Positions 52,782-61,151 of a stretch of 64,000 bases of DNA are shown here, in pieces; position 1 is the first letter of the stretch; each line of letters opens with the position of its first letter. Below the pieces are notes generated by a model. That model had not been told where the DNA came from and ran no database searches. It saw only the letters and a list, made by a program, of their open reading frames with translations. This DNA comes from Melioribacter roseus P3M-2. Lineage in GTDB: Bacteria; Bacteroidota; Ignavibacteria; Ignavibacteriales; Melioribacteraceae. The position numbers were made by a program, and so were the translations under genes. Where the stretch lies: contig NC_018178.1 of the NCBI RefSeq assembly GCF_000279145.1, forward strand, positions 2,214,001 to 2,278,000, given 5' to 3'.

Positions 52782-53306
52782 TTATAAATTGGGAGTTATT
52801 CTCAATCCCAAGCTGTTCGTCCATCCTGAGAATTCCATTCCGTTGAAATAAACGCCCATGTCGAAATTAATCGAAAGATTGTCGAGCAGTTTATAATCGA
52901 CGCCTGCGCCATACCGTGCGTACAATTTGAATTTATCGTCGGAGGGCAAGTTGTCGTAGTCATATTTCTTATATGACGTGACAAATCCGGCGGATATATA
53001 GGGAAAGATCAAATCAGTATTAAACGGTTTAACTACGGCGGTTAAACCGGTTCTGTAATCGGTTTCTTTACCGCTCAATTCTTTCATGTCGCCTTTCAGA
53101 TATTCTACTGTAAATGCTACGGTAAATTCTTCTGTAATGTCGTATCCGGCTAGCGCTCCGTAACCGACGGGAGTTTTTATATCGGTAATTCCTTTGTCGC
53201 CGATGTTGTTGAAGTGACTGAAAATAATTCCTGCCGAGACTCTGCTTTGAGAAAAAGCGGATAGCGGCAAAGTTACAAGTATCAATAACGTTAATAATCG
53301 TTTCAT
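52782..53306 (-). CDS. Small outer-membrane beta-barrel protein
   Basis: A 174-residue protein with a signal peptide (LLTLLILVTLPLSAFSQS) and alternating strands of an outer-membrane beta-barrel (YGALAGYDITEEFTVAFTVEYL, YARYGAGVDYKLLDNLSINFDMGV), ending in GLRITPNL. It is the last gene of the exporter operon, overlapping the permease gene by 4 bp. It may serve the exporter, but no specific role is recognisable. Confidence 0.78.
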   Translation of the reverse strand: MKRLLTLLILVTLPLSAFSQSRVSAGIIFSHFNNIGDKGITDIKTPVGYGALAGYDITEEFTVAFTVEYLKGDMKELSGKETDYRTGLTAVVKPFNTDLIFPYISAGFVTSYKKYDYDNLPSDDKFKLYARYGAGVDYKLLDNLSINFDMGVYFNGMEFSGWTNSLGLRITPNL

Positions 53307-54463
53307 TTTATACCTCTGTTTAATTTGTGAATTCTGATTAGAGAAGCGGCTAAGTAGAACAATAGAAGCAATGTAAGATGTAAAATCTCGGGCAGGAGGT
53401 TTGGAATGCCCGCCCCGGCTTGAGATAACCGCGTAAAAAGATTCATGTAAGGCGTGAATGGCGCTGAATAACTCAACAATTTAATTACAATAGGCATTGC
53501 ATCTAATTTCCAGCTGTATCCCGAAAAGAGAAATATGGGATACGATGTGAGAGCCATTATCTGAAGCGCGTGTAATTTTTTCTTGAAGAATGAAGAAATA
53601 AAAATACCGAAATAAACAACGCTGCCGAGGAACAGAAATCCGGTTATTGTAAGAACGATATAACTGCCTTTGAAATCAATTCCGAACAGAGGGAAAATTA
53701 TAATAGTAAAAAACAACAGATATACGGAATACAGAAGTATATAGTAAATACCCTTCGCAATAAGTGTTTGCAATATACCGTAATTATCCCCCCACAATGT
53801 GATTTCGTCGTTTTCCCTCATTTGGGCTATGCTTTCGGAAACGCCCATTAATAGCGTCTGGTGCAATATAAGAACCAAAACGGCGGGTATTAAATAATAA
53901 CCGTAGCTGTCCGACAAATTAAACAAGTTACGGATTTCAAGTTGCACGGGCTCGGATAATATCTTCGCCTGTTCCGGAGCATAGCCTTTCGATATGAAAA
54001 CAGAACTTTTAATTTCATCGTTGATAGAAGCGACGGTTTCGTTTATACCTTTATTTAAATCATTCGAAATCAAAAAACGCGATGTGTTCAGATATACTTT
54101 AATAGCGTTCTTTTCGTGTCTTTTCAATCTTTCTTCGTAATGCTTCGGAATAACAATTATTCCCTGAACCGAGCCTTCGCTTAACAACTTTTCGTCAGGG
54201 AATTCGATTTCGTATTTGACGCCGATATTAGAGTGGGCGTCGAGTAAACGAATTAATTCTCTCGAGGATTTTGTTTTGTCTAAGTCGGCCACAGCCACCG
54301 GAACGTCCCGCTCCACTTTATTGATATATACGGAGCTGTAGAAGAAAGAATAAAATAACGGAGCGAGAATGAGTATTGAAAGAAGATCAAAGTCTCTTCT
54401 AATGTTTCGCGATTCGTCGACAATAAGGCATGTTATATTTTTTATGATGTTTTTAATTCTCAT
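53303..54463 (-). CDS. ABC-2 type exporter permease
   Basis: A 386-residue membrane protein: an N-terminal helix (SILILAPLFYSFFYSSVYI), a large extracytoplasmic domain (about residues 50-190, VAVADLDKTKSSRELIRLLD), and five or six C-terminal helices with the ABC-2 pattern (FLFLGSVVYFGIFISSFFKK, ALTSYPIFLFSGYSW). This matches YhhJ/YbhR-type permeases. It overlaps its paralogue upstream by 4 bp. No ATPase is encoded nearby. Confidence 0.9.
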   Translation of the reverse strand: MRIKNIIKNITCLIVDESRNIRRDFDLLSILILAPLFYSFFYSSVYINKVERDVPVAVADLDKTKSSRELIRLLDAHSNIGVKYEIEFPDEKLLSEGSVQGIIVIPKHYEERLKRHEKNAIKVYLNTSRFLISNDLNKGINETVASINDEIKSSVFISKGYAPEQAKILSEPVQLEIRNLFNLSDSYGYYLIPAVLVLILHQTLLMGVSESIAQMRENDEITLWGDNYGILQTLIAKGIYYILLYSVYLLFFTIIIFPLFGIDFKGSYIVLTITGFLFLGSVVYFGIFISSFFKKKLHALQIMALTSYPIFLFSGYSWKLDAMPIVIKLLSYSAPFTPYMNLFTRLSQAGAGIPNLLPEILHLTLLLLFYLAASLIRIHKLNRGIK

Positions 54464-55629
54464 TTAAGTTGTTCGCTGGTAATTTTATTGATTCTGTATT
54501 TTAACGCAATATATGCCGCTGCAAATGTGATTATCGCAAAGAATATTAGCGCAGCTAATTCCGACGTCATATCTGACGGATTCGCGCCGGCGCGGATGAT
54601 TTTTATAAAGGCTTCGAGGAAGTACGTAAACGGCATTGAATAAGCCAGGGCTTTATGAACCGAGGGCATTGCCCAAACCGGGAAAGTATAACCGCTGAGT
54701 ATAAAAGCGGGGGTGTTTATGAATATTGTCAGCTCGGTTGCAAAAAGTTGATCATTAAATAACGAGGATATCAATATACCCGAATTGACGTTGACGGCGA
54801 TGAAAATAATAAATAGCAGTAATAATACGACGTACGAACCATTAACAGCTATATTGTAGAGCGGAAAAATTATAAAAAGAATTATCAACGTCATGAAAAA
54901 ATAAAGCGTAAAGTAAGGCGCGAACTTTCCCGCAAAGATTAATAAAGAGTTCCCGCGCGAAATCAAAATCAGTTCTCCAAAGGCTCTTCCGGTAAATTCG
55001 GAATTTATTATCAGCGACGTCGAAAGCATAATAGCGATCTGAAGCGTAAAAGCTATTAAGCCGGGCGGCAGGTAGCTCACGTAACTGTAGTTGGGATTAT
55101 AGAGCGAACTCGTTTCTATTTTAACCGGATTAACCAACGGGTAGGCGATTGTTTCGTTCATCGAATTCTTTTCGAATTTATTAAGCAGCGTTCCGGCCGA
55201 AAAAGTCTTGACGATTGTGGAAGCGTCTTTTAATATGAGATTGCTCGTAATAATATTAGAGCTGTTTTTGTACACAATTATCCTAGATTGCAGCCCTCGC
55301 TTAATTGAACGTTCGAAATCCGAGGGTATATAAAAGACCGCTTCCGTTTTGCCGCTATTGAAACCGTCTTCAATCATATCGATTGAAACGTATGAATCGA
55401 TTATTTCCATTGACGGGGAAGCGTCGATAAGCCGTATTAATTTTCGCGAAAGCTCGCTTCTGTCGCAGTCGTAAACCGCTACGGGCAACTCGCGTAAAAT
55501 TTCTTTTTTATATATCGAATTGAGTATCAGTATAAGAATGAAGGGCATAACAACCGCAATGAATATTGAGGTTCCGCTCATGCCCCGAATTTCTCTCTTT
55601 GCGATACGATATATTGTTTGCAAATTCAT
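54460..55629 (-). CDS. ABC-2 type exporter permease
   Basis: A 389-residue paralogue of the adjacent permease with the same plan: FIAVVMPFILILILNSIY helix, extracytoplasmic domain starting LPVAVYDCDRSELSRKLIRLID, and C-terminal helices with INTPAFILSGYTFPVWAMP. Two such permeases would form a heterodimer, as in YbhS-YbhR systems. It follows the membrane-fusion-protein gene by 3 bp. Confidence 0.9.
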   Translation of the reverse strand: MNLQTIYRIAKREIRGMSGTSIFIAVVMPFILILILNSIYKKEILRELPVAVYDCDRSELSRKLIRLIDASPSMEIIDSYVSIDMIEDGFNSGKTEAVFYIPSDFERSIKRGLQSRIIVYKNSSNIITSNLILKDASTIVKTFSAGTLLNKFEKNSMNETIAYPLVNPVKIETSSLYNPNYSYVSYLPPGLIAFTLQIAIMLSTSLIINSEFTGRAFGELILISRGNSLLIFAGKFAPYFTLYFFMTLIILFIIFPLYNIAVNGSYVVLLLLFIIFIAVNVNSGILISSLFNDQLFATELTIFINTPAFILSGYTFPVWAMPSVHKALAYSMPFTYFLEAFIKIIRAGANPSDMTSELAALIFFAIITFAAAYIALKYRINKITSEQLK

Positions 55630-55632
55630 TTC

Positions 55633-56613
55633 CTAATTCTCTAAATTTATCTGAGCCGTCATGCCCGGCAGAAGCTTGAAATTATTATCAATTGGGACCA
55701 GATGAACTTCAAAGGTTTTAAGATCGAAATCGCCTTTCCGGTTTGTAGGTTTCCAATCTGCAAAATCGCCCAAAGGGGAAATGTAATTAACCTTCACTGA
55801 CAGTTCCTTGTTGCCGAGAGCCCGAATGGTTGCCTTGAAAATTTTCCCCTTGGAGATATTTTGCATTTCGTCTTCTCGGACGTGAAGTATTACATATCGG
55901 TCGTTTTCGGGAAGAATTGAAAAAACTGGGTAGCCTGAATTAATCAGTTCTCCTATATCGGCGTAGATGTCGGTTACTTCGCCTGAAATGGGAGATTTAA
56001 TCACAAGCTCCTCATAATAAGCCAGAACTTCGTTGTAGGCGTTCTCCGCTTGAGTAACAAGTCCGCGCGCCGCCGAAATCTCTTCTTCGCGCGCGCCTTT
56101 GAGAGCCATGTCGTATTTGGCTTTTGCGGCTTCCATCTGGGCTTTTGCTGCATTGTATTTAAATTCGATTTCGTCGAATTCCTGCAGCGAAATAACATTT
56201 TCTTTATATAGCTCTTTAAATCGATTATAAGTTTTGGAAACGTATTCGTATTGAGATTTAGCCTGGAGATATAAATTCATAGCGGCTTCTTTTTCTTCAT
56301 CACGAGCGCCGTTGAGAGCCATCCGATATTTCGCATTCGCCGCTTCTAAGGCTCCTTTTGCCTGTTTCAATTTGGCTTCGAGCTCCCTGCTTTCAATTAT
56401 TGCAAGTGTGTCTCCAATATTTACTTTGTCTCCCTCGCGGACAAATATTTTCTTAAGCCTTCCGGGTATTTTAGAGGATACGTCGACTTGACGAGATTCG
56501 ACCAAACCGGTAATAATCTTTTCGTCGCCGGAGGAGATACCGGAAAATGCAATAAAGAACGCTAAACTGAAAAATACGATTGCTAAAGATGGAATTATGA
56601 TTTTCTTATTCAT
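55633..56613 (-). CDS. HlyD-family membrane fusion protein
   Basis: A 326-residue periplasmic adaptor. The start is taken at MNKKIIIPSLA (56613), just inside the end of the tolC-like gene (8-bp overlap); an upstream ATG lies deep inside that gene. It has an N-terminal anchor, a biotinyl-lipoyl half-motif (IPGRLKKIFVREGDKVNIGDTLAII), two alpha-helical hairpin repeats with duplicated AKYRMALNGARDEE / AKYDMALKGAREEE segments, and the closing lipoyl/beta-barrel (VIKSPISGEVTDIY). It links the permeases to the TolC-like channel. Confidence 0.92.
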   Translation of the reverse strand: MNKKIIIPSLAIVFFSLAFFIAFSGISSGDEKIITGLVESRQVDVSSKIPGRLKKIFVREGDKVNIGDTLAIIESRELEAKLKQAKGALEAANAKYRMALNGARDEEKEAAMNLYLQAKSQYEYVSKTYNRFKELYKENVISLQEFDEIEFKYNAAKAQMEAAKAKYDMALKGAREEEISAARGLVTQAENAYNEVLAYYEELVIKSPISGEVTDIYADIGELINSGYPVFSILPENDRYVILHVREDEMQNISKGKIFKATIRALGNKELSVKVNYISPLGDFADWKPTNRKGDFDLKTFEVHLVPIDNNFKLLPGMTAQINLEN

Positions 56614-58078
56614 GTGAAAGCTCCTGATTCTTCCAAACGTCAAAAAATTTGTCGAAATCACCCGAGGCATAAAATAGCTCGGCTAACGACTTATAATATT
56701 GGTATAAAGAGGCGGTTCTCTCGAGTTCGACTTTTTCGAGAGACAATCTGGCGTCCACGACCTCCAATGAAGTTCCCATTCCGTTCAGGAATCGTTTTTC
56801 GTTTTGTCGAAGGTTTTCTTGGGCTAATTTCATGTCGGTTTCTAACTTCTTAAATCTTTCGGAAGCGTTATTAGCTTCGGTGTATGATTTTGTAATCCAT
56901 AGATTAATCTGCTGAAACGATTCGTTCATTGTCTGTTCAACTTCGGATTCCAGATAACTTGCTTTCTGCAAATCGAGATAACTTCTGAAACCGTTGAACA
57001 AATTGATATTTAATTGAAGTCCTACTGCCCAACGCGGCTCCAGGGAAGATAAATACTCGGGATACATTTCGTATTTTCCGAAAGCGAGCAGCTTAGGTAA
57101 AAACTCGGAACGGGCAAGATTATAATTCTGTCTGGCGGCGTCTTTTTTGGTTCTAATGATGTTTAACAGCGGCTGCTTGTTAAAAGCTTCGGCTTTTAGT
57201 TCGTCAATGCGCAAATCCGTATCGTTATATGAAAGGCTGTCGGTCAGTCTTATTTCGGCATTCTGTGGAATATTTAAGAGTTGTTTGAAATTTATGAGCG
57301 CAAGCTCCAGATTGTTTTTGTCGTTAAGTAAATTTGTTTCGGCGTCCGCAAGCGCTACTTCCGCTCTTAAATAATTATTATATGAAATCAGGCCTTCTTT
57401 GTATAATTTCCAGGCGTCTTCCTTATGCTGACGGATACCCTCGAGTACCGATTGTCTGGTTTTGACTATCTCTTCTATTAGAATCACTTGAAAGTATGCA
57501 TCGGCGACTTTATAGCAAAGTTGATTTTTGACTGATTCCAATTCGAGTTCGGCAGACTTAAGCTCGCTCGATGCGTAATTCTTTGCAGCCAAAAGTTTAC
57601 CGCCCAAAAAGATGGGTTGATAGCCGACTAAGGTGGCGGTTTTAAAATCCTGTTTTTTAAAAGTCATACTGAACGGGGGGAGAAGTGAATTCAGCCCCGA
57701 AGCAATTTGTGTTCGTACCGCCGATTTTTGGGCGTCGTTAAATGCAGGGAGACCGTTTAAAATATTATAAATATTTTGTAGTTCGGTCTGCGAAGCGGCT
57801 TCCAGGCTTATGATGGCATCTTTAATCGGATTCAAGTTTATACTCATGTCGTCATTTAAGTGAGTGTACGATGCCTCCACCGAGACCGAAGGTAGAAAAT
57901 TACCCCAGGTTTTCTTCTCTTCGGCCTGTTTTGATTTAAGGCGGGACTCGTATTTTTTTACCGTAAAACTGTTTTCAAGTGCAAGCTCAATCGATTCTCG
58001 AAGAGATATTTCGAGATATTGAGCTTTTAATATGCCGGCAATAAAAAACAACGTTAAAAGAATTTTGCTTCTATGCAT
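56606..58078 (-). CDS. TolC-family outer-membrane efflux protein
   Basis: A 490-residue protein with signal peptide (ILLTLFFIAGILKAQ) and the two OEP repeats of TolC channels: LRESIELALENSFTVKKYESRL, and LARSEFLPKLLAFGKYE with long coiled-coil helices (residues about 150-290 and 340-470). It provides the outer-membrane exit of the exporter encoded downstream. The 47-bp space to the tetR gene carries a palindrome at 58094-58109 that is a likely operator. Confidence 0.92.
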   Translation of the reverse strand: MHRSKILLTLFFIAGILKAQYLEISLRESIELALENSFTVKKYESRLKSKQAEEKKTWGNFLPSVSVEASYTHLNDDMSINLNPIKDAIISLEAASQTELQNIYNILNGLPAFNDAQKSAVRTQIASGLNSLLPPFSMTFKKQDFKTATLVGYQPIFLGGKLLAAKNYASSELKSAELELESVKNQLCYKVADAYFQVILIEEIVKTRQSVLEGIRQHKEDAWKLYKEGLISYNNYLRAEVALADAETNLLNDKNNLELALINFKQLLNIPQNAEIRLTDSLSYNDTDLRIDELKAEAFNKQPLLNIIRTKKDAARQNYNLARSEFLPKLLAFGKYEMYPEYLSSLEPRWAVGLQLNINLFNGFRSYLDLQKASYLESEVEQTMNESFQQINLWITKSYTEANNASERFKKLETDMKLAQENLRQNEKRFLNGMGTSLEVVDARLSLEKVELERTASLYQYYKSLAELFYASGDFDKFFDVWKNQELSHE

Positions 58079-58093
58079 GGCTTATTCCGAAAA

Positions 58094-58109
58094 ATGAATC
58101 ATTATTCAT
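58094..58109. promoter_or_regulatory. Candidate TetR operator before tolC-like gene
   Basis: ATGAATCATTATTCAT is a perfect palindrome (ATGAAT-N4-ATTCAT) 16 bp upstream of the tolC-like ATG on the minus strand. The same half-sites and spacer recur at 58725-58740 near the tetR promoter. Confidence 0.6.
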
Positions 58110-58124
58110 AAATAATTAAAAAAA

Positions 58125-58712
58125 TTATTTCATAATTCCGTGTTTGATTAAAAACTTAAAATTTTGACGAATTTTACTCAGGGGCAATTTGCTGGGAGTC
58201 ATTGCCCACTGATGGAGCAGATTGCGTATGGAGCCGAATATGAAGTGCCGAAATATTTTTAGATCGATATTCTTGTTAAAAAATCCGGCTTTTATTCCTT
58301 CTTTGATTACTTTTTCGCCTTCGTCCAGGAATTTTTCGTAATAGAGCGAGTATTTGTCGCCTGATATTCGATTCATACTTTCCTGCTCGTTGACAAACAC
58401 AATTGCCACTGAGGGATTTTCCGTAAACATGTCGAAAATAAGGTCGATCATTGCGTCTACTTTTTCGATGGGGGAAAGAGCTTCGTTTCCTGTAATCGCG
58501 ATCAATTCGCTGTAGAGTTTTTCCCAGAGCGTGTTATAAATTTTGATTAGGATATCGTCCTTATTCTTAAAATAAAGATAAACGCTCCCGGTGGCAACTC
58601 CCGCCTGATCCGCAATCTGGGAAATTTTGGCTTTGTGGAATCCATGACGCGCGAATATATCGACCGCAGCTTCGAGAATGTCTCTCTCTTTATTTCCTTC
58701 TTTTACTCTCAT
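58125..58712 (-). CDS. TetR-family transcriptional regulator
   Basis: A 195-residue regulator. The N-terminal DNA-binding domain has ILEAAVDIFARHGFHKAKISQIADQAGVATGSVYLYFKNKDDIL, here read as the TetR HTH from about residues 10-57 (key residues G39, Y41, F44-type). The C-terminal ligand domain (helices from residue 70) resembles FadR/YsiA-like members with IFDMFTENPSVAIVFV. It heads the exporter operon and probably represses it and itself via the two palindromes. Confidence 0.93.
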   Translation of the reverse strand: MRVKEGNKERDILEAAVDIFARHGFHKAKISQIADQAGVATGSVYLYFKNKDDILIKIYNTLWEKLYSELIAITGNEALSPIEKVDAMIDLIFDMFTENPSVAIVFVNEQESMNRISGDKYSLYYEKFLDEGEKVIKEGIKAGFFNKNIDLKIFRHFIFGSIRNLLHQWAMTPSKLPLSKIRQNFKFLIKHGIMK

Positions 58713-58842: not shown

Positions 58843-59907
58843 ATGCGTTTCTACTTTTCCTTACTACTGTTTTTTGCTTTCGGTTTAACGTCTGTTGCTC
58901 AAACAGACGAGTTTTTCGAATCCAAAGCCACTATTGGCGGATACGGCGAACTCCATTACAATTATTCGAAAACTGAAAATTCAAAAGCTTCCAAAACTCT
59001 GGATTTTCACAGGTTCGTGACTTTCCTCAGCTATAATTTCAATGAAAAATGGTCGTTTAAGTCGGAAGTGGAGCTGGAGCACAACTTTGTGCAAAACGGA
59101 CAGGGAGAGCTTGAGCTTGAGCAAGCTTATGTGGAATACAGACACGCCGATTGGTTCGGATTCCAGGCCGGCGTCATTTTGCCTTCAGTCGGACTGATTA
59201 ACGAATATCATGAACCGCCGTTATTCTTCGGTGTCGAAAGACCGGATTATCATAACAAAATTATTCCCACTACCTGGTTTGGCAATGGAATTTCTTTCTT
59301 CGGGAATTACAAGTCGTTCGACTATAAGCTGACCATAATGGAAGGGCTCGACAGCGACAAGTTCAGCGAAACGAATGCCATCCGAAGCGGAAGACTAAAA
59401 GGTTATAAAGCCGATGCGGAGGATTTGTTGTATAATCTGCGAGTCGATTATCTCGGATTCAACGGCTTAAAAGTAGGCGGCTCTTACACATACAATAACG
59501 CCTCGGGCGACACTTCGCAAAATGCAATTTCAATTTATGAAGTTCATGCCGCTTACCGGATGAATAATCTTTACATAGTATTTGAATACGGTAATATCGA
59601 CTATGAAAAATATAATTTGAGAAAATCCAACGGATTTTATCTCGACCTCGGTTACGACATTTCCGGACTGTTGAACTGGAAAACGAAAGTAATTCCTTTT
59701 GTAAGGTATTCCGATTATAATACGGCAGCGTCGACTATTACCGGAGGCGATTCCGAAAAGGCGAATCACTATTCCTACTGGATGGTCGGCTGTTCGGTAA
59801 AACCGATCGACAAAGTGGTATTTAAAATAGATTACGGCATGCGGACTAAAGAACTCGGTTCGCAAGAAACCACTCTTTTCAATTTAGGCGTCGGATATAT
59901 GTTCTGA
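58843..59907 (+). CDS. Outer-membrane porin-like beta-barrel
   Basis: A 354-residue protein with signal peptide (LLLFFAFGLTSVAQ) and a long beta-barrel: TIGGYGELHYNY, VTFLSYNFNEKWSFKSEVELEH, QAGVILPSVGLINEYHEPPLFFGV, and YDYLD-like strands, ending FNLGVGYMF with terminal Phe. The YGELHYNY start and the EYHEPP segment occur in uncharacterised FCB porins related to OprO/P types. It is the first gene of a set followed by an FMN-binding protein and a membrane protein (8 bp to the next). Confidence 0.82.
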   Translation: MRFYFSLLLFFAFGLTSVAQTDEFFESKATIGGYGELHYNYSKTENSKASKTLDFHRFVTFLSYNFNEKWSFKSEVELEHNFVQNGQGELELEQAYVEYRHADWFGFQAGVILPSVGLINEYHEPPLFFGVERPDYHNKIIPTTWFGNGISFFGNYKSFDYKLTIMEGLDSDKFSETNAIRSGRLKGYKADAEDLLYNLRVDYLGFNGLKVGGSYTYNNASGDTSQNAISIYEVHAAYRMNNLYIVFEYGNIDYEKYNLRKSNGFYLDLGYDISGLLNWKTKVIPFVRYSDYNTAASTITGGDSEKANHYSYWMVGCSVKPIDKVVFKIDYGMRTKELGSQETTLFNLGVGYMF

Positions 59908-59915
59908 GAAAAATT

Positions 59916-60443
59916 ATGGTCCGATTTATTATTATATATTTATTGTTGTTAAGCACTGTCTGCGCCGGTATTAAGGAAGAAGCCGAAAAAACCGTCAAAA
60001 GTTTTTTCGGCTCCGGCTTTAAAGTGGAAATGATTAAATACGATATACCGGACGATATCAAAACAAGACTGGAGAATAAATACCGTCAGAAATTTTTCAG
60101 GGACAATTTGTACATATGGAAAATATACCGCGGAGATACACTGCGAGCCGTTGCGGCGCTGGACAACGTTTACGGTAAATCGCTACCGATTACCTTTCTC
60201 GTAGTTTTCGATACGCAGGCAAAAGTAATCAATGCGGAAATAATAAAATACAGAGAATCTTACGGAGGAGCGGTAAAAGAAAAAGTTTGGTTGCAGCAAT
60301 TCCGCGGGAAGGACGCTTCTTCGTCATTCGAATTCGGCAAGGAGATCAATTCCATCAGCGGCGCTACAATTTCCGCCGGGTCTGTTACCAAAGGAATAGC
60401 CAAACTAACCGAGTTGATAAATATTATTAAATCCGATTTATGA
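59916..60443 (+). CDS. Periplasmic FMN-binding-domain protein
   Basis: A 175-residue protein with a signal/anchor (IIIYLLLLSTVCAG) and an FMN-binding domain of the RnfG/NqrC type in its C-terminal half. The motif SISGATISA near residue 150 matches the site at which ApbE attaches FMN to Thr, with Thr151 the candidate. Such domains carry electrons outside the cytoplasmic membrane. No apbE is in the window. The gene overlaps the following membrane protein gene by 4 bp. Confidence 0.85.
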   Translation: MVRFIIIYLLLLSTVCAGIKEEAEKTVKSFFGSGFKVEMIKYDIPDDIKTRLENKYRQKFFRDNLYIWKIYRGDTLRAVAALDNVYGKSLPITFLVVFDTQAKVINAEIIKYRESYGGAVKEKVWLQQFRGKDASSSFEFGKEINSISGATISAGSVTKGIAKLTELINIIKSDL

Positions 60444-60931
60444 CTCTAAAACTGAAAAACCTGGATAAACACCTTAAACTTTTCCTTGCCGTATATTTGT
60501 TTACCCTTACGGCAGGCGTAAGTATCGGCGTATTGTTTGTGAGGCATACCACTCATATGTCGACCGAAGGAGTAATTGAAAGATTTAACGGATCACAGTC
60601 AGGCGACGACTTTGAGATAAAGGAAACTTATCCTAAACCCGTATCCGAGCTAATTATTACAACTCACAACCACATACTGGGACTGTCGTTCGTATTTTTC
60701 ACCGTGGGACTTATATTTTATTTTAATTCGGTTATCGGCGGGAAATGGAAAATCTTTTTTATGGCGGAGCCTCTTATTTCTCTTCTCGTATCCTTCGGGT
60801 CAATTTGGCTGATCAGATTCTACAATCCTTCTTTTGTTTACCTTACCTTTATTTCCTCTCTCTTAATGTTTGCGTCGTTTTACGTTATGGTTGCGGTCTC
60901 TTTTTTTGAAATTTGTTTTATAAAAAAATAA
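60440..60931 (+). CDS. Four-helix membrane protein with histidine pairs
   Basis: A 163-residue integral membrane protein with four predicted helices (about residues 15-35, 72-95, 104-125 and 131-160). Histidines H36 and H39 lie just after helix 1 and H76 and H78 at the start of helix 2, so both pairs face the same side of the membrane and could bind haem or metal; this is an inference. The 4-bp overlap with the FMN-binding gene suggests it is its membrane partner. I do not recognise the family. Confidence 0.65.
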   Translation: MTLKLKNLDKHLKLFLAVYLFTLTAGVSIGVLFVRHTTHMSTEGVIERFNGSQSGDDFEIKETYPKPVSELIITTHNHILGLSFVFFTVGLIFYFNSVIGGKWKIFFMAEPLISLLVSFGSIWLIRFYNPSFVYLTFISSLLMFASFYVMVAVSFFEICFIKK

Positions 60932-60983: not shown

Positions 60984-61151
60984 ATGGGAAATCTAGGCGC
61001 AACTGAAATTATCCTGATAGTTTTGGTGCTTGTTTTATTATTCGGAGGCAAGAAAATACCGGAACTGATGAGGGGATTGGGACAGGGAGTAAAATCTTTT
61101 AAGAAAGCCATCAACGAAGACGACGATAAACCCGAAAACGACAAATCTTAA
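60984..61151 (+). CDS. tatA: Sec-independent protein translocase TatA
   Basis: A 55-residue protein behind a good Shine-Dalgarno (AGAGGTGA). It has the TatA plan: short N-terminus MGNLGATE, a transmembrane helix ([14 protein letters not shown]), the [20 protein letters not shown] amphipathic helix with the invariant Phe-Gly and Pro, and an acidic tail. It forms the Tat pore for folded proteins. No tatC or tatB is adjacent. Confidence 0.92.

Follow-up and report, generated by a model that had tools for sequence, protein, structure and literature searches.

A porin, an FMN_bind protein and a four-helix membrane protein without a family model form a probable extracytoplasmic electron-transfer unit with a possible role in iron uptake

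The window analyzed here, that is, the whole stretch of 64,000 nucleotides from Melioribacter roseus P3M-2 (C1:2214001-2278000 of a 3.30 Mb genome on a single contig), contains three tandem genes on the + strand, in the order POR, FMN, MEM. POR encodes a porin (58843-59907, 354 aa), FMN an FMN-binding protein (59916-60443, 175 aa) and MEM a small membrane protein (60440-60931, 163 aa) whose start codon lies over the FMN stop codon in a 4-bp overlap (60440-60443). A preliminary description of this DNA had reported a barrel, a periplasmic protein with an SGAT motif and a small membrane protein encoded close together, with a 4-bp overlap between the second and third genes. The coordinates and strand were confirmed, and the first two products match Porin_4 and FMN_bind, respectively.

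The POR product has a predicted signal helix and matches Porin_4 above the cut-off (4.2e-12), and its AlphaFold2 model (pLDDT 90.1) is a 16-stranded barrel. The FMN product has a predicted signal peptide, read from the sequence, and matches FMN_bind (PF04205) at 2.6e-8 (34.8 bits against a cut-off of 22). Its SGAT site occupies residues 148-151 (60357-60368, + strand). In an alignment of 66 sequences (A5), G149, A150 and T151 are invariant and the pattern [ST]GAT occurs in 65 rows. This is a flavinylation motif whose threonine is the flavin acceptor, and ApbE is expected to attach a flavin covalently to Thr151 of the FMN product.

MEM had not been recognized as a member of any family in the preliminary description, and the window's copy indeed has no match in Pfam or NCBIfam. 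None of 34 MEM members that were scanned had a Pfam match with E below 0.01, and no NapH, MsrQ, PepSY, DsbD, NqrB or DUF4405 family appeared among their Pfam matches up to E 1. A sequence search of the PDB returned no relative of MEM (a lone match at E 0.028 is likely due to chance), and plasmid records held no match to MEM or to its c-heme relative from L140, described below. The AlphaFold2 model of MEM (pLDDT 92.6) consists of four long helices (residues 10-38, 68-94, 102-127 and 130-160). Its fold does not name the protein: the best Foldseek match, leukotriene C4 synthase at E 1.0, and the best VIA-align match, a soluble helical complex at Z 8.4, reflect a generic resemblance among four-helix arrangements.

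The preliminary description had singled out two histidine pairs in MEM, H36/H39 and H76/H78, and suggested a heme- or quinone-linked partner. All four residues were placed correctly, but only the second pair is conserved: H76 and H78 are His in 75/75 rows, H36 and H39 in 10/74 each. A 68-row alignment (A4), from which 7 of 74 loci were left out as cut, broken or c-heme forms, agrees with this. Other conserved residues are W123 (74/74), G51 (73/75), and E110, P111 and R126 (72/74 each). Heme ligation by two His pairs was rejected because H36 and H39 are not conserved, and since the single conserved H-x-H (H76-N77-H78, 60665-60673, + strand) lies on one helix, a bis-His heme inside one MEM chain is unlikely. 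The distribution of Lys and Arg, although these residues are few, fits a topology with both ends inside, which would place H76 and H78 toward the periplasmic side. They lie in helix 2, by our reading about two turns from the predicted periplasmic end, with W123 and R126 probably at the same end of helix 3. The window's MEM contains no CXXCH motif of a c-type cytochrome, and it lacks the conserved histidines on two separate helices that would mark a b-type cytochrome. MEM could nevertheless be a b-type cytochrome in which the H-x-H motifs of two chains bind heme b, with electrons then passing to FMN, an arrangement that would compete with the quinol-site detail proposed below and not with an iron role. 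H76 and H78 are invariant in one membrane helix, and FezC (DUF4405-like) is reported to be capable of forming heme sites by homodimerization (PMC11334425). However, the conserved histidines of MEM are confined to one helix, two residues apart, and, as weak evidence, no cytochrome is prominent among the structural matches; we consider this arrangement rather unlikely.

The linkage of the three genes is conserved well beyond M. roseus. In a first search of 97 genomes, the host's own included, MEM was present in 37. Flanked loci were taken for 34 of these (excluding the host's own genome, and G025 and G030, whose contigs end within MEM), and in 34/34 POR, FMN and MEM lie on the same strand in identical order, with FMN in two frames in L065, MEM interrupted by a stop codon in L063, and POR and FMN partial in L062. 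POR is strongly matched (E <1e-80) in 39/97 genomes, namely the 37 with MEM plus G014 and G053, the contig of the latter ending just 3′ of POR. Strong FMN matches (E <1e-50) likewise occur in 37 genomes, with G014 included and G030 missing relative to the MEM set. The G014 locus (L165) has POR and FMN, lacks both MEM and ApbE, and carries TGST in place of SGAT; this combination fits decay, and the G014 set looks like a decaying unit.

An alignment-based scan of genome contigs, used where a single-sequence scan had found none, produced 74 named MEM loci, partly on the same contigs as the loci of the first search. All three genes are present in 68 of these, and in 66 of the 68 the order is POR-FMN-MEM with no other sizeable gene interposed; in L110 (Fibrobacteria) POR comes last, and in L138 a TonB receptor gene lies between FMN and MEM. 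The six incomplete loci are L076, L094, L095, L123 and L126, where MEM is near a contig edge, and L140, a c-heme form. FMN and MEM overlap in 56/64 loci, with start codons chosen by rule, and in 31 the overlap is exactly 4 bp long. The linkage was seen in Ignavibacteria, Neomarinimicrobiota, Calditrichota, Balneolota, Rhodothermota and Fibrobacterota (the last in the order FMN-MEM-POR); in Planctomycetota FMN and MEM are linked, with POR in part of the loci. Pairwise distances of the three proteins correlate (Spearman 0.79-0.83, 43 loci), for which shared ancestry alone could suffice. The preliminary description had made its proposal depend on the genes being kept together in relatives, as they are. 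A chance grouping peculiar to this genome, for which no evidence was found, is refuted by the 34 loci of identical order, the 68 complete named loci and the span of several phyla, and we regard it as virtually impossible.

A second association is that with ApbE. The preliminary description had proposed the presence of apbE in the genome as a check; the gene is there in a single copy, and in many relatives it adjoins the set or is joined to FMN in a fusion. ApbE is found in 35/37 genomes with MEM and 27/60 without it (Fisher p 2.5e-7; rows related). In a neighbor set of 94 loci (the 74 named loci and 20 Planctomycetota loci) ApbE lies within the flank at 22, with Pfam confirmation in eleven proteins. 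Another set of 71 loci comprises the stretches around the Planctomycetota relatives described below, 13 loci from outside that phylum and L140. Here FMN and ApbE share one open reading frame (ORF) in 27 of the 45 FMN-bearing loci (L196, L199, L200, L201, L203, L204, L207, L210, L212, L228-L236, L240-L242, L245-L248, L251 and L264), and [ST]GA[TS] is missing from 7 of these 45 FMN ORFs, a more distant set than A5. The H-x-H of MEM is found where expected in almost all of the 71 loci (L239 and L257 are unclear). Two side observations concern these genes: a protein of 241-243 aa (NusG_II, by Pfam in L123) is encoded between MEM and ApbE in L084, L091, L099 and L123, and a second FMN_bind gene of the host genome is found well outside the window, at a distance of about 1.4 kb from apbE.

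The Planctomycetota, in which a MEM relative was found in 57/246 genomes, contain a second form of the protein. In 22 of the 71 loci, all from this phylum, a CXXCH motif is present in the outer loop between the first two transmembrane helices (L205, L206, L208, L209, L214, L237-L239, L244, L250, L252-L256, L258-L263 and L140). The loops of two such proteins that were scanned bear a weak resemblance to heme-binding profiles (0.0041 and 0.00022), below the cut-off. A proteobacterial CXXCH membrane protein mis-annotated as ‘elongation factor-1 alpha’ may resemble this c-heme MEM. FMN lies within the examined stretch at 0/22 loci with CXXCH and 45/49 without it (Fisher p 1e-14; rows not independent); within Planctomycetota alone the counts are 0/22 and 32/36. 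The four non-CXXCH loci without FMN are L257, whose match is doubtful, and three that lie close to the end of a contig (L213, L243 and L249). The examined stretches of the 22 CXXCH loci contain no POR match either. On a tree of 80 rows (7 of the 71 loci left out as weak or cut matches, and 16 of the 68 A4 rows added) the c-heme MEM proteins form one group that arose by one change, with support of 87/87. Because the CXXCH loci lack FMN and the c-heme proteins form one group, a flavin provided in trans and a c-heme provided in cis appear to be alternatives that were switched once. Flavin/cytochrome exchange has been described in other systems by Meheust et al. (PMC8238504).

The two forms of MEM bear directly on whether the protein carries electrons. 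It might instead only anchor FMN or help to assemble it, for instance by recruiting ApbE, and carry no electrons, which would accord with its small size, with the overlap with FMN and with the FMN-linked form having no cofactor motif. This is improbable given the c-heme motif in the loop of the Planctomycetota form with no FMN nearby, which fits a redox role, and given that ApbE also occurs in 27/60 relatives without MEM. The earlier suggestion that MEM is a membrane redox partner is supported, in that MEM is coupled to FMN and its CXXCH form occurs without FMN.

Taken with the linkage of the genes, this evidence indicates that the trio is very probably one extracytoplasmic electron-transfer unit. 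The preliminary description had proposed such a unit on the basis of flavinylation; that part is sustained by apbE, the linkage and the MEM-FMN coupling, while the role of two His pairs as heme ligands is not. Several observations weigh against this reading and the iron role built on it below. The mutual exclusion of FMN and CXXCH represents one evolutionary event and not many. The separation of flavin and c-heme forms is incomplete for ApbE, because an ApbE match lies in the flank of 3/22 c-heme loci (L256, L259 and L262), and ApbE was not found in two MEM-bearing draft genomes, G038 and G052. POR was detected in 13/32 Planctomycetota FMN loci (some stretches end early) versus 12/13 of the others. 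Finally, no solved fold stands out for MEM and no structural match names a cofactor.

Iron-uptake genes adjoin the set in several relatives. Among the 71 loci, FeoB is encoded in the stretch at 10/49 without CXXCH and 0/22 with it (p 0.025), and within Planctomycetota alone at 9/36 and 0/22 (p 0.01). In L201 the genes FUR-POR-FMN/ApbE-MEM-FeoB lie on one strand (FeoB by Pfam); L212 has FUR-FeoB-POR-MEM-FMN/ApbE (FeoB by Pfam, Fur by phmmer only) and L227 has FeoB-POR-FMN-MEM-ApbE (FeoB by Pfam). In L242, L245-L248 and L251, FeoB (by Pfam for L242) is the next open frame after FMN/ApbE, 47 bp on or overlapping, and MEM lies on the opposite strand within a few kb. Elsewhere, L109 has FeoB upstream of the set (TIGR00437 over the cut-off; also Pfam), L121 reads FUR-FTR1-POR-FMN-MEM-ApbE, and L110 and L139 likewise have Fur in the vicinity of the three genes. 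The 94 loci include Fur at 4, FTR1 at 1, FeoB at 3 and TonB receptors at 8 (10 in a looser clustering). TonB receptors are common proteins in such bacteria, so they carry little weight as evidence for iron.

The POR barrel is also suggestive in this respect. Lumen-facing positions were assigned by strand parity in an alignment (A6) of 43 of the 66 sequences at hand (65 loci and the window). E36, E75, E77, E79 and E93 face the lumen and are present in 43/43 rows, and H38, D54, H56 and E89 in 95-98%; past strand 5, N120, H123, E124, P125, R133 and P134 occur in all rows. The POR lumen therefore looks like a cation- or metal-binding one, a selectivity that we infer from these residues.

Because FeoB, FTR1 or Fur adjoin the set in several relatives, we favor the proposal that the trio acts as an extracytoplasmic ferric reductase serving iron uptake, an activity predicted from sequence to which we give even chances of being correct. 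In the scheme we envisage, POR would admit iron ions or small complexes to the periplasm through its acidic, His-rich lumen. MEM would take electrons from the quinol pool on the periplasmic side, near H76/H78 and the end of helix 3 (W123, R126), and pass them to the flavin that ApbE is expected to attach to Thr151 of FMN. This flavin would reduce Fe(III) to Fe(II), which could then enter the cytoplasm via FeoB or another carrier. Computation supplies the basis of the scheme, namely the gene linkage, the family and fold assignments, the residue conservation, the proximity or fusion of ApbE, the two MEM forms and the iron neighbors in several relatives; the quinol donor, direct contact between MEM and FMN, the iron substrate and the direction of electron flow are the parts that we infer. 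The fullest version, in which MEM represents a minimal family of membrane oxidoreductases (with one H-x-H in a bundle of four helices, passing electrons from quinol on the periplasmic side to an FMN_bind partner, often fused to ApbE, or to a c-heme in its own outer loop) that together with a dedicated metal-selective porin with an acidic, His-bearing lumen forms a complete reductive iron path through the outer membrane and periplasm to FeoB, is put forward tentatively and with distinctly less confidence.

A number of points count against an iron role. The FeoB loci L242-L251 are close relatives, reducing the FeoB associations to about five independent cases. The window's own locus contains no Fur, FTR1, FeoB or TonB receptor gene, and most Ignavibacteria copies are without an iron gene. 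A scan of 43 POR upstream regions for a Fur box, with L201 and L212 outside the set, was negative for the window (best site 9/14, p 0.86) and also for L110, L121 and L139; p 0.05 was reached by 2/43 upstream regions, L077 (12/14, 0/200 shuffles) and L122, which is about the number expected by chance. Basic lumen residues of POR are kept as well (K328 in 100% and R288 in 98% of rows). Moreover, two neighbors of a different kind recur among the 94 loci, whose neighbor clusters were scanned with Pfam in a minority of cases. A secreted SelR/MsrB-type gene lies one to two genes 5′ of POR on the same strand in 8/94 loci, all Ignavibacteria-type (L071, L072, L074, L079, L081, L088, L089 and L103; Pfam only for L079, SelR at 7.7e-54), and an EamA transporter gene adjoins 17/94 loci, also Ignavibacteria-type (Pfam in one). 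Both may be merely inherited gene order. The SelR/MsrB-type protein could be an electron acceptor, however, and because its gene recurs before POR we lowered our estimate for the iron role, from slightly better than even to even.

The unit might accordingly serve another acceptor, be it respiratory, detoxifying or for repair (for example a secreted methionine sulfoxide reductase), with the porin supplying or releasing the substrate. Beyond the recurrent MsrB-type gene, the window's copy diverges from a TetR regulator and an efflux-type set and has no neighboring iron gene, flavinylated proteins serve respiration besides iron uptake, and MsrQ-like proteins are a known membrane partner (PMC8238504). 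Against this, the MsrB-type neighbors are restricted to Ignavibacteria-type loci, whereas FeoB, FTR1 or Fur occur in several distant relatives. We consider another acceptor somewhat unlikely, and retain ferric reduction as the preferred function.

Several further features of the surroundings were recorded. In the window, TetR-, TolC-, HlyD- and ABC-2-permease-like genes (53303-58712, - strand, read from ORFs) diverge from the set, and the same TetR/efflux-type gene order is found in a same-genus genome (L032). Directly 3′ of MEM is a 55-aa TatA (60984-61151), as also in L032, L033 and L064, and with it an HtpG-like gene; TatA is no constant member of the set. Elsewhere in the host genome, FeoB_N matches at G000:C1:2159551-2160012 and 3087950-3088395 (L265, L266) fall in one short frame (254 aa) and one broken-looking frame, and may represent split, unusual or broken FeoB genes. 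Rhodanese and SufE-like genes (Pfam one each) follow the set, past the EamA gene, in L075, L076, L079, L101 and L102, and the flanks of the distant relatives L109, L125, L139 and L203 encode a propeller protein of PD40/TolB-like type (by Pfam in L139). A solute-binding protein beside L131 and L137 was not counted as evidence for iron, since its best NCBIfam matches, phosphonate and thiamine types below the cut-off, lend no support to an iron-binding identity.

Redox reactions beyond the cytoplasm are driven by flavinylated proteins, yet of the genomes that encode ApbE machinery about half are reported to lack a previously characterized system (PMC11334425). MEM is a candidate for such a missing membrane partner, one that is small enough to be studied biochemically and has a natural c-heme counterpart for comparison, and proteins that no Pfam or NCBIfam model covers would gain a name. 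To our knowledge, iron uptake in the Ignavibacteria, Planctomycetota and Neomarinimicrobiota has been little studied; if the iron role is true, these would include organisms in which a porin and a reductase of its own are encoded together and may be coupled.

Each component has a counterpart among known systems. POR is a 16-stranded barrel with the same fold as OprO and OprP (best match OprO 4rjw, Z 27.1, rmsd 2.6, 297 aligned; OprP 2o4v, Z 26.8). Its conserved lumen is mostly acidic and His-bearing (R288 and K328 excepted) and appears to differ from the arginine ladder named in the title of the OprP entry (2o4v). FMN shares with RnfG/NqrC the FMN_bind family and a flavin site of the same type, and its profile matches solved RnfG chains (9eri_G, 4.7e-10), but it falls far under the RnfG model cut-offs (28.6 of 102 bits for TIGR01947 and 31.8 of 205 for NF045876) and its conserved neighbors are a porin and MEM. 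A porin and FeoB also act in one ferrous uptake pathway in E. coli (OmpC-FeoB; PMC7315122); OmpC, however, is a general porin, and the word ‘reductase’ occurs 0 times in the searched text of that paper. The membrane partners tied to flavinylation are described as NapH-like, MsrQ-like, PepSY-like, DsbD and NQR/RNF-like, several of these classes being linked to iron uptake (PMC8238504), with DUF4405 as a further partner (PMC11334425). The word ‘porin’ is absent from the main text of both papers, and the trio is undescribed in the literature searched, a search that did not extend to supplements. Like those partners, MEM has its gene next to that of an FMN_bind protein, in many cases with ApbE as well, and is assumed to feed the flavin. 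It differs from them in having four helices and one H-x-H in place of heme-ligand pairs, Fe-S or Cys pairs, and as far as Pfam can tell it lies outside the five classes of PMC8238504 and the DUF4405 of PMC11334425. The families of FMN and POR are known, and we regard the trio as a variant form of flavinylation-based extracytoplasmic electron transfer.

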